Positions 10,774-50,970 of a stretch of DNA of 64,000 nucleotides are shown here, piece after piece. Source of the DNA: Bdellovibrio sp. 22V (GTDB lineage Bacteria > Bdellovibrionota > Bdellovibrionia > Bdellovibrionales > Bdellovibrionaceae); the NCBI RefSeq assembly GCF_030169785.1, contig NZ_CP125854.1, positions 1,922,001-1,986,000 on the forward strand. Reading direction: 5' to 3'. Within the stretch, counting starts at the first letter, position 1; every line of letters begins with the position of its first letter. The notes under the pieces are model-generated. The model searched no databases, was not told the DNA's origin, and saw only the letters and a program-made list of their open reading frames with translations. Position numbers and translations under genes: made by a program.

Positions 10774-10788
10774 ACAGAGTTAAGTTTT
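10764..10788 (+). terminator. Weak intrinsic terminator after the kinase gene
   Basis: TAACTCT (10764-10770) and AGAGTTA (10776-10782) pair around a 5-nt loop that contains the stop codon, followed by AGTTTTT. The 7-bp AT-rich stem is marginal. It overlaps the putative -35 of a FliA-like promoter. Confidence 0.4.
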
Positions 10789-10807
10789 TAACACCTTATC
10801 CCGATAT
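10781..10807 (+). promoter_or_regulatory. Possible sigma-28 (FliA) promoter of the lipoprotein gene
   Basis: TAAGTTTT (10781-10788) and CCCGATAT (10800-10807) are separated by exactly 11 bp. Each half matches 6 of 8 positions of the enterobacterial FliA consensus (TAAAGTTT, GCCGATAA). It lies about 70 bp before the GTG start. It is weaker than the csrA site but has the same geometry. Confidence 0.35.
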
Positions 10808-10874
10808 TACGCCTATCAGAGGGCGGAATGGATCTTGCCTTTATTCATATTGATACGTGAAAAAAGGGGGATTT

Positions 10875-11450
10875 GTGAAAAGAGGTTTGGCACTAATATC
10901 AGTTCTGTGTCTCATTTTAGGATTCCAGAACTGTAGCCAAAGCGCTTTTAATCCGGCTGGATTAGAAGCCAATGAAGTTTCTATCTCTTTGCCTCCTTCG
11001 GTTGAAGGTGAAGAGCCAAGTTCTTCCAAAGTAACTTACGTCGAAATCCCGAACATGCAAGATCAGAGCAGTGGTATTGCAGCGAAAGCCAGCGAGTTGA
11101 CTCCTTATCGCCTTGTTATCTCAACGGCGACGGGCCGAATTCAGCTTATGGATGATGCCAATGAAATCTTGCAAGAGAAATGTTTAAGCTCCAGTGATCT
11201 GCAAGAGTTGCAAACGATCCTTAGCGGTTCTTCTGTGTGCGCGCAGCCTGAAGTCGAGGCTGACATGTGTGCGGCGAGATACACTCCGCCTTATGCGTCT
11301 CTTTACGCAAATGAAAAACGTGTAAATCTGGGGGAAGCGAGGGATTCTTGTGGCAAAGGCCGCAAAGATCTTTGCGGAGGCCTCACAGAAGTATTTCAAG
11401 CTTATATAAGTCACGTAAAGTCCGGTTGGACTTCGATGAATTGCGAATAA
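10875..11450 (+). CDS. Putative lipoprotein with Asn at the -1 lipobox position
   Basis: The GTG at 10875 is chosen because a GGGGG run lies 4 nt upstream; a GTG at 10857 would add six residues without a site. Residues 1-17 form a hydrophobic signal ending LGFQN followed by Cys 18, a non-canonical lipobox. The mature domain of about 170 residues contains seven further Cys, mostly in the C-terminal half (KCLSS, VCAQ, MCAAR, SCGKG, LCGG, NCE), indicating a disulfide-stabilised envelope protein. No known family. A strong terminator follows at once. Confidence 0.6.
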   Translation: MKRGLALISVLCLILGFQNCSQSAFNPAGLEANEVSISLPPSVEGEEPSSSKVTYVEIPNMQDQSSGIAAKASELTPYRLVISTATGRIQLMDDANEILQEKCLSSSDLQELQTILSGSSVCAQPEVEADMCAARYTPPYASLYANEKRVNLGEARDSCGKGRKDLCGGLTEVFQAYISHVKSGWTSMNCE

Positions 11451-24275: not shown

Positions 24276-24475
24276 GGTCACCTCAGCGATGGGAGTTGCA
24301 ATGTAAGTGCCCCCAGAGCTAAAAACAGTTTTATCTGATCGAAGCTGACCGTCTAAACTTCTGACACTCTCCCATTTTGGTCGCTGTTTGACTCGTGTCA
24401 TTTTTACGAATGTGTTTCTGCATGTTTTTCATGTCACGGTCGTCGCAGAGAAGAAAAAAAGCGATAGTTAAAACT

Positions 24476-25750
24476 ATGGCTCAGCAAATTCCGCAGGCAG
24501 CATTTGATTCGACGGTTTCGCTTTTGCGAGATCCCTATCATTTTATTTCGCGCACTTGCCAAGACATGAATACGCCCGTGTTTCAAACGCGCGTGCTTTT
24601 ACGCAATACGATTTGCATGACGGGCGTCGAGGCCGCGCAGTTTTTTTATGACGAAAAAAACTTTATTCGCAAAGGCGGAATGCCGGAGCCCATCGTGGCG
24701 ACTTTGCTAGGTAAAAAAGGAGTGCAAAGCCTTGATGATGTGGCACACAGACATCGCAAAAAGATGTTCATGTCTTTTATGACGGACGAAAGCGTGCAAA
24801 AGCTCGTTCTTCTGACGGAGAAGCACTGGGATAAAACTGTCCCCGTGTGGATGAAGATGAAGCACATAAATCTTTATGATGAATATATTCGTATTCTTAC
24901 GCAAAGTGTGTGCGAGTGGGCGGGAATTCCGTTGGAACCTGCGGAAGTTTCGGTGCGCAGTGAAGATCTTCGGGCGATGTTTGACGACGCGGGCTCGGCG
25001 GGCCTGCGGCATCTTCATTCGCGACGAGCCAGAAAGAATGCGGAAGCTTGGATCAGCAACATCATTCGACAAGTGCGCAAGGCCCAGCGCAGTGTGGAAC
25101 CGAATTCGCCTGTGGGTGTGATCGCGTGGCATCAAGAAATGGATGGCCGTCTTTTGGATGACAAAACCGCGGCCGTAGAAATTCTTAATCTTTTGCGCCC
25201 GACGGTGGCTGTTGCTGTCTACCTGACTTTTGCAACTCATGCTTTGTATGTGCATCCCGAGTGCCGCGCTAAAGTTCATGACGACACTTATTTAGATTAT
25301 TTTGTGCAGGAGATTCGCCGTTTCTATCCGTTCTTCCCCGCTGTCGCAGCAAAGGTGCGTGAGGATATTGAATGGCAGGGGTATTCCTTCAAGAAGGGGA
25401 CCCGCACGATACTTGATCTTTATGGTATTAATCACGATGCGAATTTATGGTATGAGCCCCGCAAATTTATTCCGGAAAGATTCGCGACGTGGAATGGCAG
25501 CCCCTATAGCTTCGTCCCGCAAGGCGGAGGCGATCATTATACTCAACATCGCTGCCCGGGAGAGAAAATCACTTTAGAGTTGTTGCGAATGGCGACTCGT
25601 TATTTAAGGGAGACGATTTCTTATGCGGTTCCGAGACAAGATTTTCAACTGGAAGAAAATCGGCTTCCTGCTTTACCAAGAAGCCGGTTTATTATCAGTC
25701 ATGTGCAGCTTAAGCTAAGGCCTTCTGAACATCCTCAGCAATATCTCTAG
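24476..25750 (+). CDS. CYP152-family cytochrome P450, fatty-acid peroxygenase type
   Basis: ATG at 24476 gives 424 residues starting MAQQIPQ. CYP152 hallmarks are present: LLRPTVAVAVY with the Arg that binds the fatty-acid carboxylate, the ExxR helix (QEIRRFYPFFP), and the haem-binding loop PQGGGDHYTQHRCPGEKIT with axial Cys. Members use hydrogen peroxide directly to hydroxylate or decarboxylate fatty acids without a reductase. At the position that is His85 in the decarboxylase OleT, this protein has Gln (KGVQSLDD), as in the hydroxylase P450-BSbeta, so hydroxylation is the better guess. Its 3' end overlaps the convergent glutathione peroxidase by 41 bp. Confidence 0.92.
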   Translation: MAQQIPQAAFDSTVSLLRDPYHFISRTCQDMNTPVFQTRVLLRNTICMTGVEAAQFFYDEKNFIRKGGMPEPIVATLLGKKGVQSLDDVAHRHRKKMFMSFMTDESVQKLVLLTEKHWDKTVPVWMKMKHINLYDEYIRILTQSVCEWAGIPLEPAEVSVRSEDLRAMFDDAGSAGLRHLHSRRARKNAEAWISNIIRQVRKAQRSVEPNSPVGVIAWHQEMDGRLLDDKTAAVEILNLLRPTVAVAVYLTFATHALYVHPECRAKVHDDTYLDYFVQEIRRFYPFFPAVAAKVREDIEWQGYSFKKGTRTILDLYGINHDANLWYEPRKFIPERFATWNGSPYSFVPQGGGDHYTQHRCPGEKITLELLRMATRYLRETISYAVPRQDFQLEENRLPALPRSRFIISHVQLKLRPSEHPQQYL

Positions 25751-26352: not shown

Positions 26353-26389
26353 AATTCTATTATGAGAAACTTTAGCGAACTAGACTACG

Positions 26390-26398
26390 TTCCGATAG
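26390..26398 (+). promoter_or_regulatory. TTCCGATAG element 7 nt before paralogue A start
   Basis: The core TTCCGATA is shared with the upstream regions of paralogue B (27972) and the fibre gene (47792). It matches the FliA -10 at 6 of 8 positions in the form TCCGATAG, but no good -35 is found 11 bp upstream. The ATG at 26406 lacks a clear Shine-Dalgarno, so a very short leader is possible. Confidence 0.35.
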
Positions 26399-26405
26399 GA
26401 ATACC

Positions 26406-27917
26406 ATGGGGATCAGGTATTTTTTGGCAATCACCATAGTGGGGCTTGTGCTCTCGCCTTTGCAAGGTCATGCGGATTCTTATGCCGCATGCCACACGAC
26501 ATGCAATGCACGACATCCTAACAATCCTTCCGCGATGTATGAAAACTGTTTACAGGATTGTTATGGAAGCATGAACACTGTTGATCTTCCCGAAGTAGGG
26601 CCCCTCCCTCCTTCTAGACCATCTGACCTCGGTTCGCAAAACACGCGTACCAACGGCAACGGCAATAATCAAAACCAGAACCGCAATCAAAATCAAGGCG
26701 GAAACCAAAATCAACAGCAAGCGAACCAGTGTGTTCAGCAGTTTGAAGCGTTGTTATCTCAGTGCAACTCGCAAGTCGATGAAACCTCTTACCAGTGTGA
26801 TGAAAAAAACGATTCAGGTATGACGGGAGTTGCAGACACCGCTTCGCAGATTGCTCTTTTGATGGGGCAGCAAACGGCGGCGAGTGTGCAAGCCGCGTGC
26901 GGAAAGATGGGGGATTTGTCTCAGGCAGCGCAAGGTGCGGTGGCAGCGTATCGTTTGAATTGCAGTAACTCGATTAAGACATGCCGGGAAACTTGCGATG
27001 CTCCGAAAAACTATGTGAACTCGAACGCAACTTGTTTCAATGGTGGTGCAGGCGCTGCCAATAACGGTGTCTATGCATTGTCGCGCGCGCAGTCCGCTCG
27101 CGATCGTTGCAATAATTTCGATTCGAAAGTTCAACAAGCACAACAAGCTATTCAGAACTATGGAGCGACGGCGGCGAATGCTTCTCAGTGTGAGGAGCAA
27201 ACCAAAGGCGAAGCTACGCCACCGCCGGATGTGTGTAAGCAAAATCCTCAGATCGCAGGATGTACACCTGCGGGTCCCATTGATTGTTCAAAACCTGAAA
27301 TGGCGACAAATAAAGTGTGTGTATGTTCGAAAACTCCCACAGACCCTATGTGTACAAACTTAGGTAAAGCTTCCGACGTTATGGTTGGTGGAGGCTCCTT
27401 TGATCCTGCATCGCGCTTGAATTCGGGATCCAGCGATGACTTCGGTGGTGATATTCCCGACACGCCGGCCATCTCGCACGGCAAATTGCCAAGCGGTGGA
27501 CCCGGTGAAGCTGTCGACGGAAAACAAGGCGCCGGAGCTGATCTTGCGACGAATCCGGGGAGTGGCAGCAGTCTTGCCGGTGCGGGCGGAGGTCGAAGTG
27601 GTGCCGGTGGTGGTGCTGCTGACAACGCGACAGGTGGTGGTTCCGGCTTCTATGGTGGAGGCAGCGGCGGCGGTGTCTTCGGAGGTGGCGGCGGAGGCGG
27701 CGGCGCTCGAGGTGCCGCGGGCTCTTACGGTAAAGTCGGCGCGAATGGAAAAGCGCCGGGTGCAGATCTTCGTCAGTTTCTTCCAGGCGGAAAATTTGAT
27801 CCGCGACGAGGAGTTGCGGGAGTGTCAGGACCTGATGGCATCACGGGACCTCACTCAAATATTTGGCAAAAGATTCAGAATCGATATCAAGTGGTCAGCC
27901 CTTCGTTGATCCCTTGA
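26406..27917 (+). CDS. Secreted Cys-rich/Gly-rich surface protein, tandem paralogue A
   Basis: The 503-residue protein has a signal peptide ending GHAD. Modules: a small Cys module (about 25-60, four Cys), an Asn/Gln-rich low-complexity linker (about 78-105), a helical Cys core (about 107-305, starting QCVQQFEALL, with QNYGATAANASQCEEQT and PPPDVCKQNPQIAGC), a long Gly/Ser-rich segment (about 375-445), and a conserved C-terminal tail with LRQFLPGGKFDPRRG and NIWQKIQNRYQV. It shares the core, Gly region and tail with the next gene, but the N-terminal module differs. Nothing identifies an enzyme; an exported structural, adhesive or fibre-associated role is inferred. Confidence 0.75.
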   Translation: MGIRYFLAITIVGLVLSPLQGHADSYAACHTTCNARHPNNPSAMYENCLQDCYGSMNTVDLPEVGPLPPSRPSDLGSQNTRTNGNGNNQNQNRNQNQGGNQNQQQANQCVQQFEALLSQCNSQVDETSYQCDEKNDSGMTGVADTASQIALLMGQQTAASVQAACGKMGDLSQAAQGAVAAYRLNCSNSIKTCRETCDAPKNYVNSNATCFNGGAGAANNGVYALSRAQSARDRCNNFDSKVQQAQQAIQNYGATAANASQCEEQTKGEATPPPDVCKQNPQIAGCTPAGPIDCSKPEMATNKVCVCSKTPTDPMCTNLGKASDVMVGGGSFDPASRLNSGSSDDFGGDIPDTPAISHGKLPSGGPGEAVDGKQGAGADLATNPGSGSSLAGAGGGRSGAGGGAADNATGGGSGFYGGGSGGGVFGGGGGGGGARGAAGSYGKVGANGKAPGADLRQFLPGGKFDPRRGVAGVSGPDGITGPHSNIWQKIQNRYQVVSPSLIP

Positions 27918-27952
27918 TCGTGTCTCTTTTTGAGACACTCAGGAACGTTCTT

Positions 27953-27980
27953 TTAAGTTCGTCCTCATATGTTCCGATAA
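27953..27980 (+). promoter_or_regulatory. Possible FliA promoter of secreted paralogue B
   Basis: TTAAGTTC (27953-27960, 6 of 8 to the FliA -35) and TCCGATAA (27973-27980, 7 of 8 to the -10) are 12 bp apart, one more than the usual 11. The ATG lies 9 nt after the -10, so the transcript would have almost no leader. Confidence 0.45.
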
Positions 27981-27989
27981 ACTCGGAGC

Positions 27990-29450
27990 ATGGGGAATGT
28001 TTTCTATTCAGTAATACTCTTAGCGATCAGTCTTTTCACTTTTCCTGAAGACGCGTATGCCCGTTGTCGAGCTCAATGTGCTGAAGGTTTTAAATGCGTA
28101 TACAATTCTCGAGGGCATGAAATGTGTGAACCGGAGCGCCGTGATGAATGCACACGGCAGCTCGGCGAGTGCTATCCTGGATATAGTGCGCGACTTAATA
28201 GCGCGGGCTCGTGCGAATGTCTTCCAAATTCAAACAACAATAATAATAACAATAACAACAATACAGCTATTGACTGTCGTACGCAGTTCAACAATCTGTT
28301 GCAATCTTGCCAAACGCAAATTCAGGAAACGTCTTATACCTGTGATGAAAAAAATGATTCTGGTATGAACGGTGTTGCTGATACGGCTTCGCAAGTTTCT
28401 CTTTTATTCGGCCAGCAAACGGCGGCAAGTATTCAAGCCGCTTGTTCAAGAATGGCGGGTTTAACCCAAGCGGCGCAAGGTGCAGTGGCTGCGTATCGAT
28501 TGTTATGCAGTAGTTCCATTGGCCAGTGTCGATCGACTTGTGCGGCAGCGGCGGATTTTATTCGTGCGAATCCAAATTGTTCGCCTGTAAGTGCAGAGAA
28601 TGTGCAAATGTTGTCTTCTGCGGAATCGCAGGCAAAACGTTGCGACGACTTCCAGTCTAAAGTGGCGGAAGCGCAACAAGCGATTCAAAACTATGGCGCG
28701 ACGGCTGCGAATGCGGCTCAGTGTGAAGAGCAAACAAGCGGAGACGCAACACCGCCACCTGATGTCTGTAAACAGAACCCACAAATTGCGGGTTGTACGC
28801 CAACGGGACCGATCGATTGTTCAAAGCCGGAAATGGCGACGAATAAAATCTGTGTGTGTACGAAGACTCCGACAGATCCGATATGTATTACTCAAGCAAA
28901 ACCGGATACCAGTGTTGGCGTTGGCGGCAGCATCGACTCGTCATCGCGAAAACTTGCAGCAAGCACAGGCGATAGCGGTCTTGGGGATATTCCCGGTTTG
29001 CCAGGTTTAGAGCATGGCAAATTGCCAAGTGGCGGAAGCGGCGAAGCCGTCGACGGAAAACAAGGTGCCGGCGCAAATCTGGGTTCTGATGGCGGCGGCA
29101 GCGGCGGCGGTCCCTCTGGAAGAGGCGGCGGTGGCGCGGCAGGTGAAGACGATTCACAAGCTGTCACAGCGGGTTTCTATGGCGGAGGCAGTGGCGCTGG
29201 TGGAGCCTTCGGCGGCGGATCAGGTCGCTACGGTGCGGGCGCAGCTGGAAATTATGCAGGGGCGGCAGGAGCAAACGGTCAGGCTGGAAATGGTCCTGAC
29301 TTACGAAGATTTTTACCTGGTGGTCAATTCGATCCTAAACGCGGTCTTTCAGGAATGGGCGGCCCGGATGGAATCACAGGACCGCATACAAATATCTGGC
29401 AAAAGATTCAGAACCGCTACAGAGTGATGAGTCCTTCACTTCTGCCATAA
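27990..29450 (+). CDS. Secreted Cys-rich/Gly-rich surface protein, tandem paralogue B
   Basis: The 486-residue protein has a signal peptide ending DAYA. The N-terminal module (about 25-78) has eight Cys and differs from paralogue A. An uninterrupted run of ten Asn, encoded by AAC/AAT repeats near 28232-28261, links it to the shared core (IDCRTQFNNLL onward, with QNYGATAANAAQCEEQT), the Gly-rich region and the tail ending YRVMSPSLLP. The core is close in sequence to paralogue A, so the pair arose by tandem duplication with the tip exchanged or diverged. Function unknown; exported. It converges on lysC with an 8-bp gap. Confidence 0.75.
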   Translation: MGNVFYSVILLAISLFTFPEDAYARCRAQCAEGFKCVYNSRGHEMCEPERRDECTRQLGECYPGYSARLNSAGSCECLPNSNNNNNNNNNNTAIDCRTQFNNLLQSCQTQIQETSYTCDEKNDSGMNGVADTASQVSLLFGQQTAASIQAACSRMAGLTQAAQGAVAAYRLLCSSSIGQCRSTCAAAADFIRANPNCSPVSAENVQMLSSAESQAKRCDDFQSKVAEAQQAIQNYGATAANAAQCEEQTSGDATPPPDVCKQNPQIAGCTPTGPIDCSKPEMATNKICVCTKTPTDPICITQAKPDTSVGVGGSIDSSSRKLAASTGDSGLGDIPGLPGLEHGKLPSGGSGEAVDGKQGAGANLGSDGGGSGGGPSGRGGGGAAGEDDSQAVTAGFYGGGSGAGGAFGGGSGRYGAGAAGNYAGAAGANGQAGNGPDLRRFLPGGQFDPKRGLSGMGGPDGITGPHTNIWQKIQNRYRVMSPSLLP

Positions 29451-47753: not shown

Positions 47754-47773
47754 ATTGATTTGAGCCTCCTCCT

Positions 47774-47800
47774 TAAGGGGGCGTAAGATCTTTCCGATAA
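47774..47800 (+). promoter_or_regulatory. Possible FliA promoter of the fibre gene
   Basis: TCCGATAA (47793-47800) matches the FliA -10 at 7 of 8 positions. The segment exactly 11 bp upstream, TAAGGGGG (47774-47781), matches only TAA and one G of the -35. The ATG at 47809 is 8 nt after the -10 and has no Shine-Dalgarno, so a leaderless or near-leaderless mRNA would result. Confidence 0.4.
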
Positions 47801-47808
47801 GTATACAA

Positions 47809-50800
47809 ATGAATAACTGGTACGTTTCGGGAATATTTGTTTATTTGTTTTGCTATGCCCTCTCGGCTTTTGCTGTTCCAGGGGCATTAACATATCAAGG
47901 TCGAATAAAAAATGCGGACGGACTTCCTTTAGAAATAAATGGAGTGAAGTTTGAGTTTGCCGTGGTCAATCCTACCGGCAGTTGTATTCTCTATCGTGAA
48001 ACTTCCGGCTCTTTGGATATGCGAAATTCGGGAGGGGTGTTTGATGTTCCGATTGGCCCGGGAACAAAGAACTATCCTGCAGATCCTGGTTTTAAGTTGT
48101 TAGATAGTTTCGCCAACAGCACCACTTTTAATTGTGAAGGCGGCGGTACTTACACTCCTCTGACAGATGATAAGCGCCTTTTACGCGTGCAATTTTATGA
48201 CGGCACGGGATGGAAGTTAATCAGTCCAGACAGCGAGATCCGCTCGGTTCCTTTTGCGGGACACGCGAAGATCGCGCAAACCGCGAATTCTTTGGGAAGT
48301 AACGTTGTCAGTGATTTTGTACTGAAATCTTCTGTACCGCTGTGTGCTGCCGGACAATACCTACGTCACATCGCCCCTTTGGGAACTTTCGAGTGTGCGG
48401 CTCCTTCTGTTGCGGGAGGGAATGTCACAGGAAATATCGCCGGCAGCTCCGCAGGCTTCACAGGGAATTTGAGTGGCGATGTTTCGGGAACTCAAGCTGC
48501 GACGAGTGTAGATAAAATCAAAGGTGTCGCGCTGGACATGACGGGCATCGCTTCAGGGAAAGTTCTGAAATACAATGGCACAAGCTGGATTCCAAGTGAT
48601 GATAGTGGGACTGTAGGTGGCATCACGACGTTGAATGGAGATGTCTCTTCAACAGGCAATCCCACTGCCACAGTCACTTTGAATGACAGTACTGTGACCT
48701 CCGCAAAGATTGTCGACGGTACTATTGTCGATGCAGACATTTCCAGTAGCGCTGGCATTGCGGATTCTAAACTTGCGACGATTTCATCCGCAGGCAAGGT
48801 TTCCGGAAATGCCATCACGTCTGGAACTATTGGTGGTTCTACGACAGTGAATACGTCAGGCTCTGTCACGGCAAACAGCATGTCGACGGGAACTCTGGGT
48901 GTTAATAATTTGCAGGTGTATAAAACCGGAAATGGCAACAAGGTCACAATCACGGTGCCGGCAGGGTTGTCGTCAGACTATTCATTGCAATTGCCATCAA
49001 GTGCGGGGACTTCGGGACAAGTCTTGTCGACAGATGGCAGTGGGATTTTATCTTGGATAAATCCCGCTACGGGTTCGGTGACCTCAGTAACAGCAACAGC
49101 GCCATTGGCCAGCAGTGGAGGAGCCACTCCGGTCATTTCCTTAAACACCTCGGGTGTGCAAACAGGACAAACTCTTTTGTATAATGGAACTCAGTGGAAT
49201 GTGCAGTATTTTGGCATGGGACAGTTGCGTTCGACCGTCACAGGAACTTCCCAAATTCCTGCATCTTGTTCGACGGCAGATAAGACTCTCACTTGGAGTG
49301 CAATCACAGATTCATTTTCTTGTACGACGATTGCAATCGCCAATACGCAAGTCACGGGACTGGGAACAGCTTCCACAAAAAATTTCGGCACATCAGCGGG
49401 AAACCTCGTTGAACTTGATGGCTCTGCAAAAATTCCGGTTTCACTTCTTCCCCAAGGAGCTGGTGGAACTCTGGTCGACGGAGGAAATGCCACAGGTGCC
49501 GCGATTTCTGTGGGAACGAATGATGCCAACGCTCTGTCTTTAGAAACCAACAATGCTGTTCGAATGACAATCACCTCGGCAGGCAATATTGGAGTCGGCA
49601 CAGAGGCACCCCAGCACTTCATGCATCTTTCTAAAGATGGAGATTTAAGTACGATTTTGGATTCTTATGGAGGCAGTGCCGGTTTGGTGATGCGAAAAAC
49701 TTCAGGCACAAAAGCGGCTCCGACGGCAACGTTGAGCGGAGCGGATCTCGGAGTTTTAGTTTTCGGCGGCTACGGCGCTTCAAGTTTTCATTCTTACTCT
49801 GCTGCGAAAGTTTCCGCTATTGCCAATGAAAATTTCACGGATGCCACGGGAGCGGCTTCATTGGTATTTTCTACGCGAGGACCCAATGATCTTTCTGCCT
49901 CTGACGAAAGAATGAGAATCACACCCACTGGTGACGTTGGTATTGGCACATCGATTCCTGGTGCAAAATTGGAAGTTCAAACCGGAAATATTCGCTCCTC
50001 TCGAAGCGCTGGTGTTTCTAATCAATATGCCGAGATTCAGGGAGGAGATCCCGGCGGGATTTATTTTGTTGGTCATACGGATGAAAGCAATAAAAAGCTC
50101 CTGCGATTTAGATCTCTGCATAATTCCGGCGGCACTCCCAGCGGTGCTCTCGGATTTTTATTTGAACTAGGTCCTACTTCCGCTCCGATAGAAGTGATGA
50201 GAATCACTGAAGAGGGCCATGTGGGCATCGGGACGGCAGCGCCTACGGCTCCATTAAATGTTGTGGAAAGCACGGATATCACCAGTGCGGTCGACGGTGG
50301 TGCCATTCTTATTCATACGGGAGCGACTCACCAAATGCGTATTGACTCAAATGAAATTCAAACTTCTTTAAGTGGTGCTGCTTCCAGTTTGGCCATAAAT
50401 CCTTTCGGTGGCGTCGTTCAGGTTGGAGCTGTCTTTCAGCCACTGACTGATAATAGCTTTACTCTTGGATCGGCCGCGCGACGCTGGTCCGCTGTTTACG
50501 CCACGAACGGAACCATTCAGACTTCCGATCGCCGTCTTAAAAAAGACATTCAGGATTTAAACGTGGGTCTTCGTTTTATAAACTCTCTGCGTCCTGTGAG
50601 TTTCAAGTGGCGTTCCGATGAACCGTCTTCTGCGCCAACTCACTGGGGCTTGATCGCTCAGGAGTTGCATGACCAAGTAAATCGGGAAGGAACCGATAAT
50701 GTCGGAGTCGTTTCTAAAAAGGACGATTATTACGGTGTTAATTACTCTGAACTTGTCGGACCCTTGATCAATGCGGTGAAGGAACTGGATGTCGCTTGTA

Positions 50801-50970
50801 AAATGAGTGAGCAACAAAATAAAAGTCTGAGTGCACGACTGGCTTCTCAAGATCGTCGTCTGGCGAGCGTTGAAGAAGATGTACTTTCACTTAAAAAAGA
50901 GAATGCGGAATTAAAAGCTCGACTTCAGAGGTTGGAGCGTGTGCTTGCAAAGCAGTCCCGCTCAAAGTAA
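47809..50970 (+). CDS. Chimeric trimeric fibre protein with C-terminal endosialidase-type chaperone (MAT-like)
   Basis: The 1053-residue protein has a signal peptide ending SAFAV, then an N-terminal domain (GALTYQGRIKNADG to PIGPGTKN), Ser/Thr/Gly-rich repetitive shaft strands like phage tail fibres (ADISSSAGIADSKLATIS, VTSVTATAPLASSGG), several GVGTEAP/GIGTAAP repeats, and a peptidase S74 intramolecular chaperone starting TSDRRLKKDI (self-cleaving Ser906), with a coiled-coil end (ENAELKARLQRLERVL). S74 chaperones trimerise fibres and then cut themselves off. Bdellovibrio MAT proteins have this plan and bind prey surface glycans. No adhesin tip domain can be identified by eye. Confidence 0.88.
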   Translation: MNNWYVSGIFVYLFCYALSAFAVPGALTYQGRIKNADGLPLEINGVKFEFAVVNPTGSCILYRETSGSLDMRNSGGVFDVPIGPGTKNYPADPGFKLLDSFANSTTFNCEGGGTYTPLTDDKRLLRVQFYDGTGWKLISPDSEIRSVPFAGHAKIAQTANSLGSNVVSDFVLKSSVPLCAAGQYLRHIAPLGTFECAAPSVAGGNVTGNIAGSSAGFTGNLSGDVSGTQAATSVDKIKGVALDMTGIASGKVLKYNGTSWIPSDDSGTVGGITTLNGDVSSTGNPTATVTLNDSTVTSAKIVDGTIVDADISSSAGIADSKLATISSAGKVSGNAITSGTIGGSTTVNTSGSVTANSMSTGTLGVNNLQVYKTGNGNKVTITVPAGLSSDYSLQLPSSAGTSGQVLSTDGSGILSWINPATGSVTSVTATAPLASSGGATPVISLNTSGVQTGQTLLYNGTQWNVQYFGMGQLRSTVTGTSQIPASCSTADKTLTWSAITDSFSCTTIAIANTQVTGLGTASTKNFGTSAGNLVELDGSAKIPVSLLPQGAGGTLVDGGNATGAAISVGTNDANALSLETNNAVRMTITSAGNIGVGTEAPQHFMHLSKDGDLSTILDSYGGSAGLVMRKTSGTKAAPTATLSGADLGVLVFGGYGASSFHSYSAAKVSAIANENFTDATGAASLVFSTRGPNDLSASDERMRITPTGDVGIGTSIPGAKLEVQTGNIRSSRSAGVSNQYAEIQGGDPGGIYFVGHTDESNKKLLRFRSLHNSGGTPSGALGFLFELGPTSAPIEVMRITEEGHVGIGTAAPTAPLNVVESTDITSAVDGGAILIHTGATHQMRIDSNEIQTSLSGAASSLAINPFGGVVQVGAVFQPLTDNSFTLGSAARRWSAVYATNGTIQTSDRRLKKDIQDLNVGLRFINSLRPVSFKWRSDEPSSAPTHWGLIAQELHDQVNREGTDNVGVVSKKDDYYGVNYSELVGPLINAVKELDVACKMSEQQNKSLSARLASQDRRLASVEEDVLSLKKENAELKARLQRLERVLAKQSRSK

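Follow-up and report, generated by a model that had tools for sequence, protein, structure and literature searches.

How Bdellovibrio recognizes prey of very different kinds is a long-standing question. In the window, as we call the whole stretch of 64,000 nucleotides from Bdellovibrio sp. 22V that was analysed (contig NZ_CP125854.1, positions 1,922,001 to 1,986,000), a first-pass annotation singled out two tandem genes, here named A and B, as secreted paralogues in which unrelated N-terminal Cys modules are joined to a common Cys/Gly-rich body, a plan that resembles adhesins or fibres with diversifying tips. The locus raises the question of whether such N-terminal modules have really been exchanged and what an exchangeable front end may do for the predator.

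Architecture of the A and B proteins

Both open reading frames are present in the window, and the parts of the locus are the following, all on the + strand.

26371..26397, +: FliA (sigma28)-type promoter of A, TTTAG-N16-CCGATA, one mismatch to the published consensus
26406..27917, +: gene A, exported modular protein of 503 aa
26406..26474, +: Sec signal peptide predicted from the sequence of A, approximately residues 1-23, lacking a lipobox
26475..26576, +: N-module of A, type H, CX3C-X14-CX3C, predicted alpha-hairpin
26577..26726, +: linker of A, Pro-rich and then Asn/Gln-rich by sequence, mostly with pLDDT <50
26730..27365, +: Cys core of A, a helical bundle and a Cys-rich segment by model and alignment (16 Cys in the body)
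27366..27764, +: Gly-rich region of A, of low confidence in the structure model
27765..27914, +: C-terminal tail of A (DLRQFLPGGKFDPRRGVAG..DGITGPHSNIWQKIQNRY..), homologous to the tail of operon protein T
27953..27979, +: FliA (sigma28)-type promoter of B, TTAAG-N16-CCGATA, exact match to the consensus
27990..29450, +: gene B, exported modular protein of 486 aa
27990..28061, +: Sec signal peptide predicted from the sequence of B, approximately residues 1-24, lacking a lipobox
28062..28226, +: N-module of B, type K with 8 Cys (CX3-5C..GxxC..C), modelled as beta-hairpins
28227..28271, +: linker of B, poly-Asn by sequence
28275..29447, +: body of B, comprising the Cys core, the Gly-rich part and the tail (29298-29447)

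Pairwise comparison matched A to B with E = 1e-155, and a profile of the body gave matches to 1e-140 across the class; the likeness of the two proteins is therefore not due to chance. Identity was 69% for the core, 54% for the Gly-rich region and 78% for the tail, where both proteins have the same NIWQKIQNRY, a stretch whose motif is kept in most of ~97 homologues. In contrast, the N-terminal parts showed 21% identity over half of the columns, and the N-module holds four Cys in A (C29, C33, C48 and C52) and eight in B. Both the shared body with its nearly identical tail and the unrelated front ends, as first described, were thus confirmed. The description of the linkers as Asn/Gln-rich or poly-Asn held for A and B but not as a constant of the family, since several members have none or a Pro/Ser/Thr-rich one. 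Likewise, A and B are tandem paralogues at this locus but are not the full set, because this genome has two more distant members at other places, one at 455888-457066 and a weak match at 3488161-3488709, bringing its total to four.

AlphaFold2 models of A and B were of low overall confidence (mean pLDDT 57). In both, most of the Cys core was modelled as a helical bundle (blocks with pLDDT ~57-95), and the Gly-rich part and the tail mostly stayed at pLDDT <50; in these models the body begins with an alpha-helical bundle and continues as a disordered Gly-rich stretch, with no fibrous beta-structure. The N-module of A was modelled as an alpha-hairpin (pLDDT up to ~84) and that of B as two beta-hairpins (pLDDT ~64-71). 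The models thus assign, with moderate confidence, a different fold to each N-module, and the possibility that both have the same one, raised in the first-pass annotation, was not borne out. A fold search of the model of A against the PDB returned weak matches, mostly to helical bundles, the best with E 0.17.

A lineage-specific family and the replacement of its N-modules

The annotation had not recognized the family, and neither did the databases: A and B had no match above the curated cut-offs of Pfam or NCBIfam and none in PHROGs or among PDB sequences, and no known enzyme family emerged from these collections. A profile built from 37 bodies found the family in 115 of the 144 genomes of the class and in two of 225 other genomes of the phylum. 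A single-sequence search found homologues in 65 of 100 relatives; its failure to find any in a likely epibiotic genus was an artefact of sensitivity, since the profile search detected members there. A phage or plasmid origin was discarded, because A had no match in phages or plasmids and the tail had none in viral contigs. Genomes carry one to ten copies, and tandem runs comprise two to four. Judged from these comparisons, A and B are part of a lineage-specific exported family that is new and undescribed.

The plan of a variable front end, a linker and a constant body, proposed for A and B, proved to be a family-wide rule. The body holds exactly 16 Cys in 55 of the 56 members of the genus (14 in the remaining one), which suggests the presence of eight disulfides. 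At least three classes of N-module recur, namely H (FxGCxxxC..C..C or CX3C pairs), K (CX3-5C..GxxC..C, in one to several repeats) and W (~100 aa), and further N-modules are unclassified. Two small secreted Cys proteins that look like lone N-modules adjoin family genes in locus L044 (4813-5133 and 11086-11370). Remnants include a 107-aa ORF that joins a core fragment to a tail in strain kdesi (L117 3118-3441) and a tail-only 56-aa ORF (G017:C1:1336470-1336565). The most divergent family copies are flanked by a short exported RHS repeat/DUF6531 protein assigned by Pfam (L045 10259-11716) and by proteins that look like it (L045 14110-15570 and L050 2887-4356). A public MAG labelled Streptomyces griseus (L123) carries a family gene of this class, and its record is probably mislabelled.

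The position of family genes near the flgF-flgG operon is conserved across genera; the immediate neighbours of the members at this flagellar locus are lysC, a lytic transglycosylase and a glutathione peroxidase, and copies also occur outside it. One genome (G006) has three copies there, between a 247-aa protein and the flgF operon. Partly from these neighbours, we infer that it is B. bacteriovorus HD100, the 247-aa protein matching the MltA-like Bd0519 in length (PMC10127604) and FlgF of B. bacteriovorus being Bd0530 (PMC12546842). Searching the literature with HD100 locus numbers from around the flagellar locus yielded nothing on the family genes, and the literature searched held no localization or phenotype for family proteins. 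A cytochrome P450 (PF00067; window 24395-25750) lies beside A and B; none was seen at the corresponding position of the HD100 locus (L032). Members also occur in many uncultured genomes and in a predator genus that is likely epibiotic, which gives no support to a role in prey invasion as such; finding them in a likely epibiotic predator speaks against proteins that serve prey entry alone.

In a tree of the bodies, A and B were sisters (support 99-100) despite the type H module of the one and the type K module of the other. The bodies grouped by genome and not by N-module type, and the module labels required 17 changes on the tree, when the least possible number was 3. Forcing all type-H bodies into one clade was rejected (p-AU 1.5e-5), and so was a single clade for the strict FLGC subset of type-H bodies (p-AU 1.7e-4). 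Such a mismatch between tree and module could by itself also be explained by homogenization of the bodies. A species pair, with loci L058 and L059 (genomes G011 and G022), is more telling. Their DNA identity is 89-100% up to approximately codon 10 of the likely start, falls to 41-69% over ~225 bp that comprise the rest of the signal peptide and the N-module (41-56% in four of the five blocks), and is mostly 82-100% in the body; flanks and body are both at ~95%, and the upstream region is at 95-99%. At the protein level, identity was 37% in the N-terminal part, 97% in the core and 100% in the tail. This pair shows an outright cassette replacement of the N-module. L058 is likelier to be the changed copy, since the module of L059 resembles that of L057.

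The remaining rival for the decoupling of N-module and body is that old gene conversion homogenized the bodies of tandem genes and that no tips were exchanged. A type H module in first place and a type K module in second place do recur in arrays, as if the modules had stayed and the bodies had converged. However, fourfold sites of A and B are nearly saturated, so their divergence is old and a recent gene conversion between them is ruled out; in the L058/L059 pair only the module changed, and type-W modules are found on bodies in unrelated places. We regard homogenization as decidedly improbable, and N-module replacement as the reading to carry forward.

FliA-type promoters and a TadE/G-like operon

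The attack-phase consensus of Bdellovibrio, TTAAG-N16-CCGATA, has been assigned to FliA (PMC3627812), and FliA control has been shown for the TAD operon of B. bacteriovorus (PMC5430801). A and B both carry this element at the gene start, exactly in B and with one mismatch in A; the two sites have the same spacing and each lies ~10 bases 5′ of the start codon. A pattern search of the window found four FliA-type sites with at most one mismatch, compared to 0.84 in shuffles; sigma70 promoters and terminators were no more numerous than in shuffles. Across the genus, a site with at most one mismatch precedes 22 of the 56 family genes and 6 of the 435 neighbouring genes (Fisher p 6e-18, a value overstated because orthologues are not independent, although the spacing and position of the site are nevertheless constant), and with at most two mismatches the counts were 42/56 and 25/435. 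The family genes of G025 (loci L130 and L142), possibly the epibiotic predator B. exovorus JSS, also have a site with the same spacing upstream. These promoters suggest that A and B are made in the hunting (attack) phase. Elsewhere in the window, an exact FliA-type site (10780-10806) lies upstream of a 197-aa lipoprotein-like protein of unknown family (10857-11450).

The most conserved orthologue of the family belongs to a three-gene group, together with a TadE/G-like protein (~740 aa, PF13400 above the curated cut-off) and a third secreted protein, T, which had no Pfam match. All 18 loci with the TadE/G-like gene, from several families and two orders, hold all three genes, with a different gene order in two and a different orientation in one; since the loci were fetched for holding a family member, they show conservation of the cluster and not independent association. 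In most Bdellovibrio, the first gene of this operon has no FliA-type site upstream. In G023, two overlapping ORFs (L115 9309-11572) take the place of an intact TadE/G-like gene, owing to a frameshift or a sequencing error.

The family and protein T have a C-terminal tail in common. The C-terminus of T (LAG..NGEPIGVAADSIFLMMTRRYK) aligns in register with the family tail (VAG..PDGITGPHSNIWQKIQNRYQ). Comparison of 68 family tails with 18 tails of T, of which one was mis-cut, gave an hhalign probability of 92% and a pairwise E of 6e-7; a narrower set of tails gave a probability of 11% and an E of 0.003. When genomes were searched with their own tails, every strong match was a family member or T. 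Of the 144 genomes, 110 have both the family and T, 5 have the family without T, 16 have T without the family and 13 lack both, counts that are confounded by genome completeness and shared descent. A second copy of T in G000 (3024842-3025720) had no adjoining family match in the own-genome searches. Neighbours like tadE, tadF or tadG are found for the operon orthologue and not for A and B themselves: no Tad gene adjoins them at the flagellar locus, and neither protein has a TadE/G Pfam match. Taken together, the FliA-type promoters and the tail shared with a partner of the TadE/G-like operon point to an attack-phase envelope or pilus-associated role.

Possible function and relation to known exchangeable tips

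We give about an even chance to the reading that A and B are Sec-exported, disulfide-rich proteins of the attack-phase envelope or surface, in which the exchangeable N-module makes contacts outside and the tail docks. The order of the parts would then be an exchangeable N-module, a flexible linker, a constant helical 16-Cys body, a Gly-rich spacer and a docking tail, this last being an anchor that would fit every variant into the same receptor. Through duplication and N-module replacement, each strain would gain a tip set of its own with which to contact prey or surfaces. The receptor would probably belong to a Tad-type (TadE/G-like) apparatus or be assembled with one, because the gene of the ancestral member is flanked by those of the TadE/G-like protein and of a second protein that has this tail. 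Taken alone, use by or docking to a Tad-type apparatus is a tentative proposal, somewhat on the weaker side of even. The most complete version, a predator-lineage system in which cassette-exchanged N-terminal tips on Sec-exported eight-disulfide bodies are docked by their tails into a TadE/G-like apparatus and serve as non-pilin interchangeable tips that set prey contact, is rather doubtful. A and B may help the predator to recognize or handle prey, as putative adhesins that would be exposed at the surface, docked by the tail and bound to prey through the N-module.

The same proteins might instead be structural components of the attack-phase envelope or of the flagellar sheath, with N-modules that vary by drift under weak constraint and not by choice of ligand. 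The FliA-type promoters, the conserved position near flgF-flgG across genera and the disordered Gly-rich stretch would all fit. But sharp cassette boundaries and distinct, conserved Cys module classes are unlike drift, there are copies outside the flagellar locus, and the immediate neighbours (lysC, the lytic transglycosylase and the glutathione peroxidase) are not flagellar, which makes this explanation unlikely. More improbable still would be secretion into the prey as effectors or prey-modifying proteins, with the tail as the export signal of a dedicated route and the N-module as the active part. A conserved C-terminal tail on two different bodies does resemble a sorting signal, and secreted proteins like lone N-modules occur near family genes (L044 4813-5133); however, the N-modules are tiny Cys-bonded folds with no enzymatic family or conserved catalytic set, and all variants keep a large 16-Cys body that a mere carrier would not need. 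Envelope or surface proteins with exchangeable N-modules are the reading that we compare with known systems.

MAT fibres of B. bacteriovorus are exported, with a conserved stalk, evolutionarily exchanged tips and paralogous sets in each genome (PMC10769870). The A/B family is like them in coming from the same predator, in its export, in joining a constant part to swapped tips and in its paralogous sets per genome. However, MAT fibres are long, trimeric and beta-helical, with C-terminal tips and several ending in an S74 chaperone (PMC10769870), whereas the A/B family is predicted to be alpha-helical, is Cys-rich and varies at the N-terminus. Neither a trimeric beta-helix nor homology to phage tail fibres was found in A and B, whose core is predicted to be helical; they had no phage-fibre match in PHROGs, whereas another gene of the window (47809-50970) did. 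That gene encodes an exported protein of 1053 aa that resembles phage tail fibres and has an S74 chaperone domain (PF13884); the protein looks like a MAT fibre (PMC10769870), and an exact FliA-type site lies upstream of the gene (47773-47799).

Interchangeable disulfide-rich tips are also described for the Tip complexes (KilL-M-N) of the Kil/Tad pilus of Myxococcus, and a Bdellovibrio Tip is proposed there as well (PMC12075869). The two systems have in common a predator and disulfide-rich interchangeable tips, and the ancestral A/B family member shares its operon with a TadE/G-like protein. Kil tips, however, belong to the minor pilins and carry a prepilin site and an N-terminal alpha1 helix, whereas A and B have Sec signal peptides, no N-terminal pilin helix and no prepilin peptidase site. 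The Tad/Flp system of B. bacteriovorus (flp1-flp4) comprises FliA-controlled attack-phase genes that predation requires, namely the TAD operon (PMC5430801). The family resembles it in its FliA-type promoters, but the Flp pilins are short, unlike A and B, and the searched text of that paper names no member of the family.

Because they have no beta-helix, S74 domain or pilin helix, A and B are filed neither as MAT fibres nor as Kil tips. All in all, the principle of swappable tips is already known from these two systems, whereas the A/B family is new: it is unnamed and class-wide, its tip replacement is directly evidenced, its promoters are of the attack-phase type, an operon and a common tail connect it with a TadE/G-like protein, and it provides concrete genes and a candidate docking motif for studies of prey range and Tad function.
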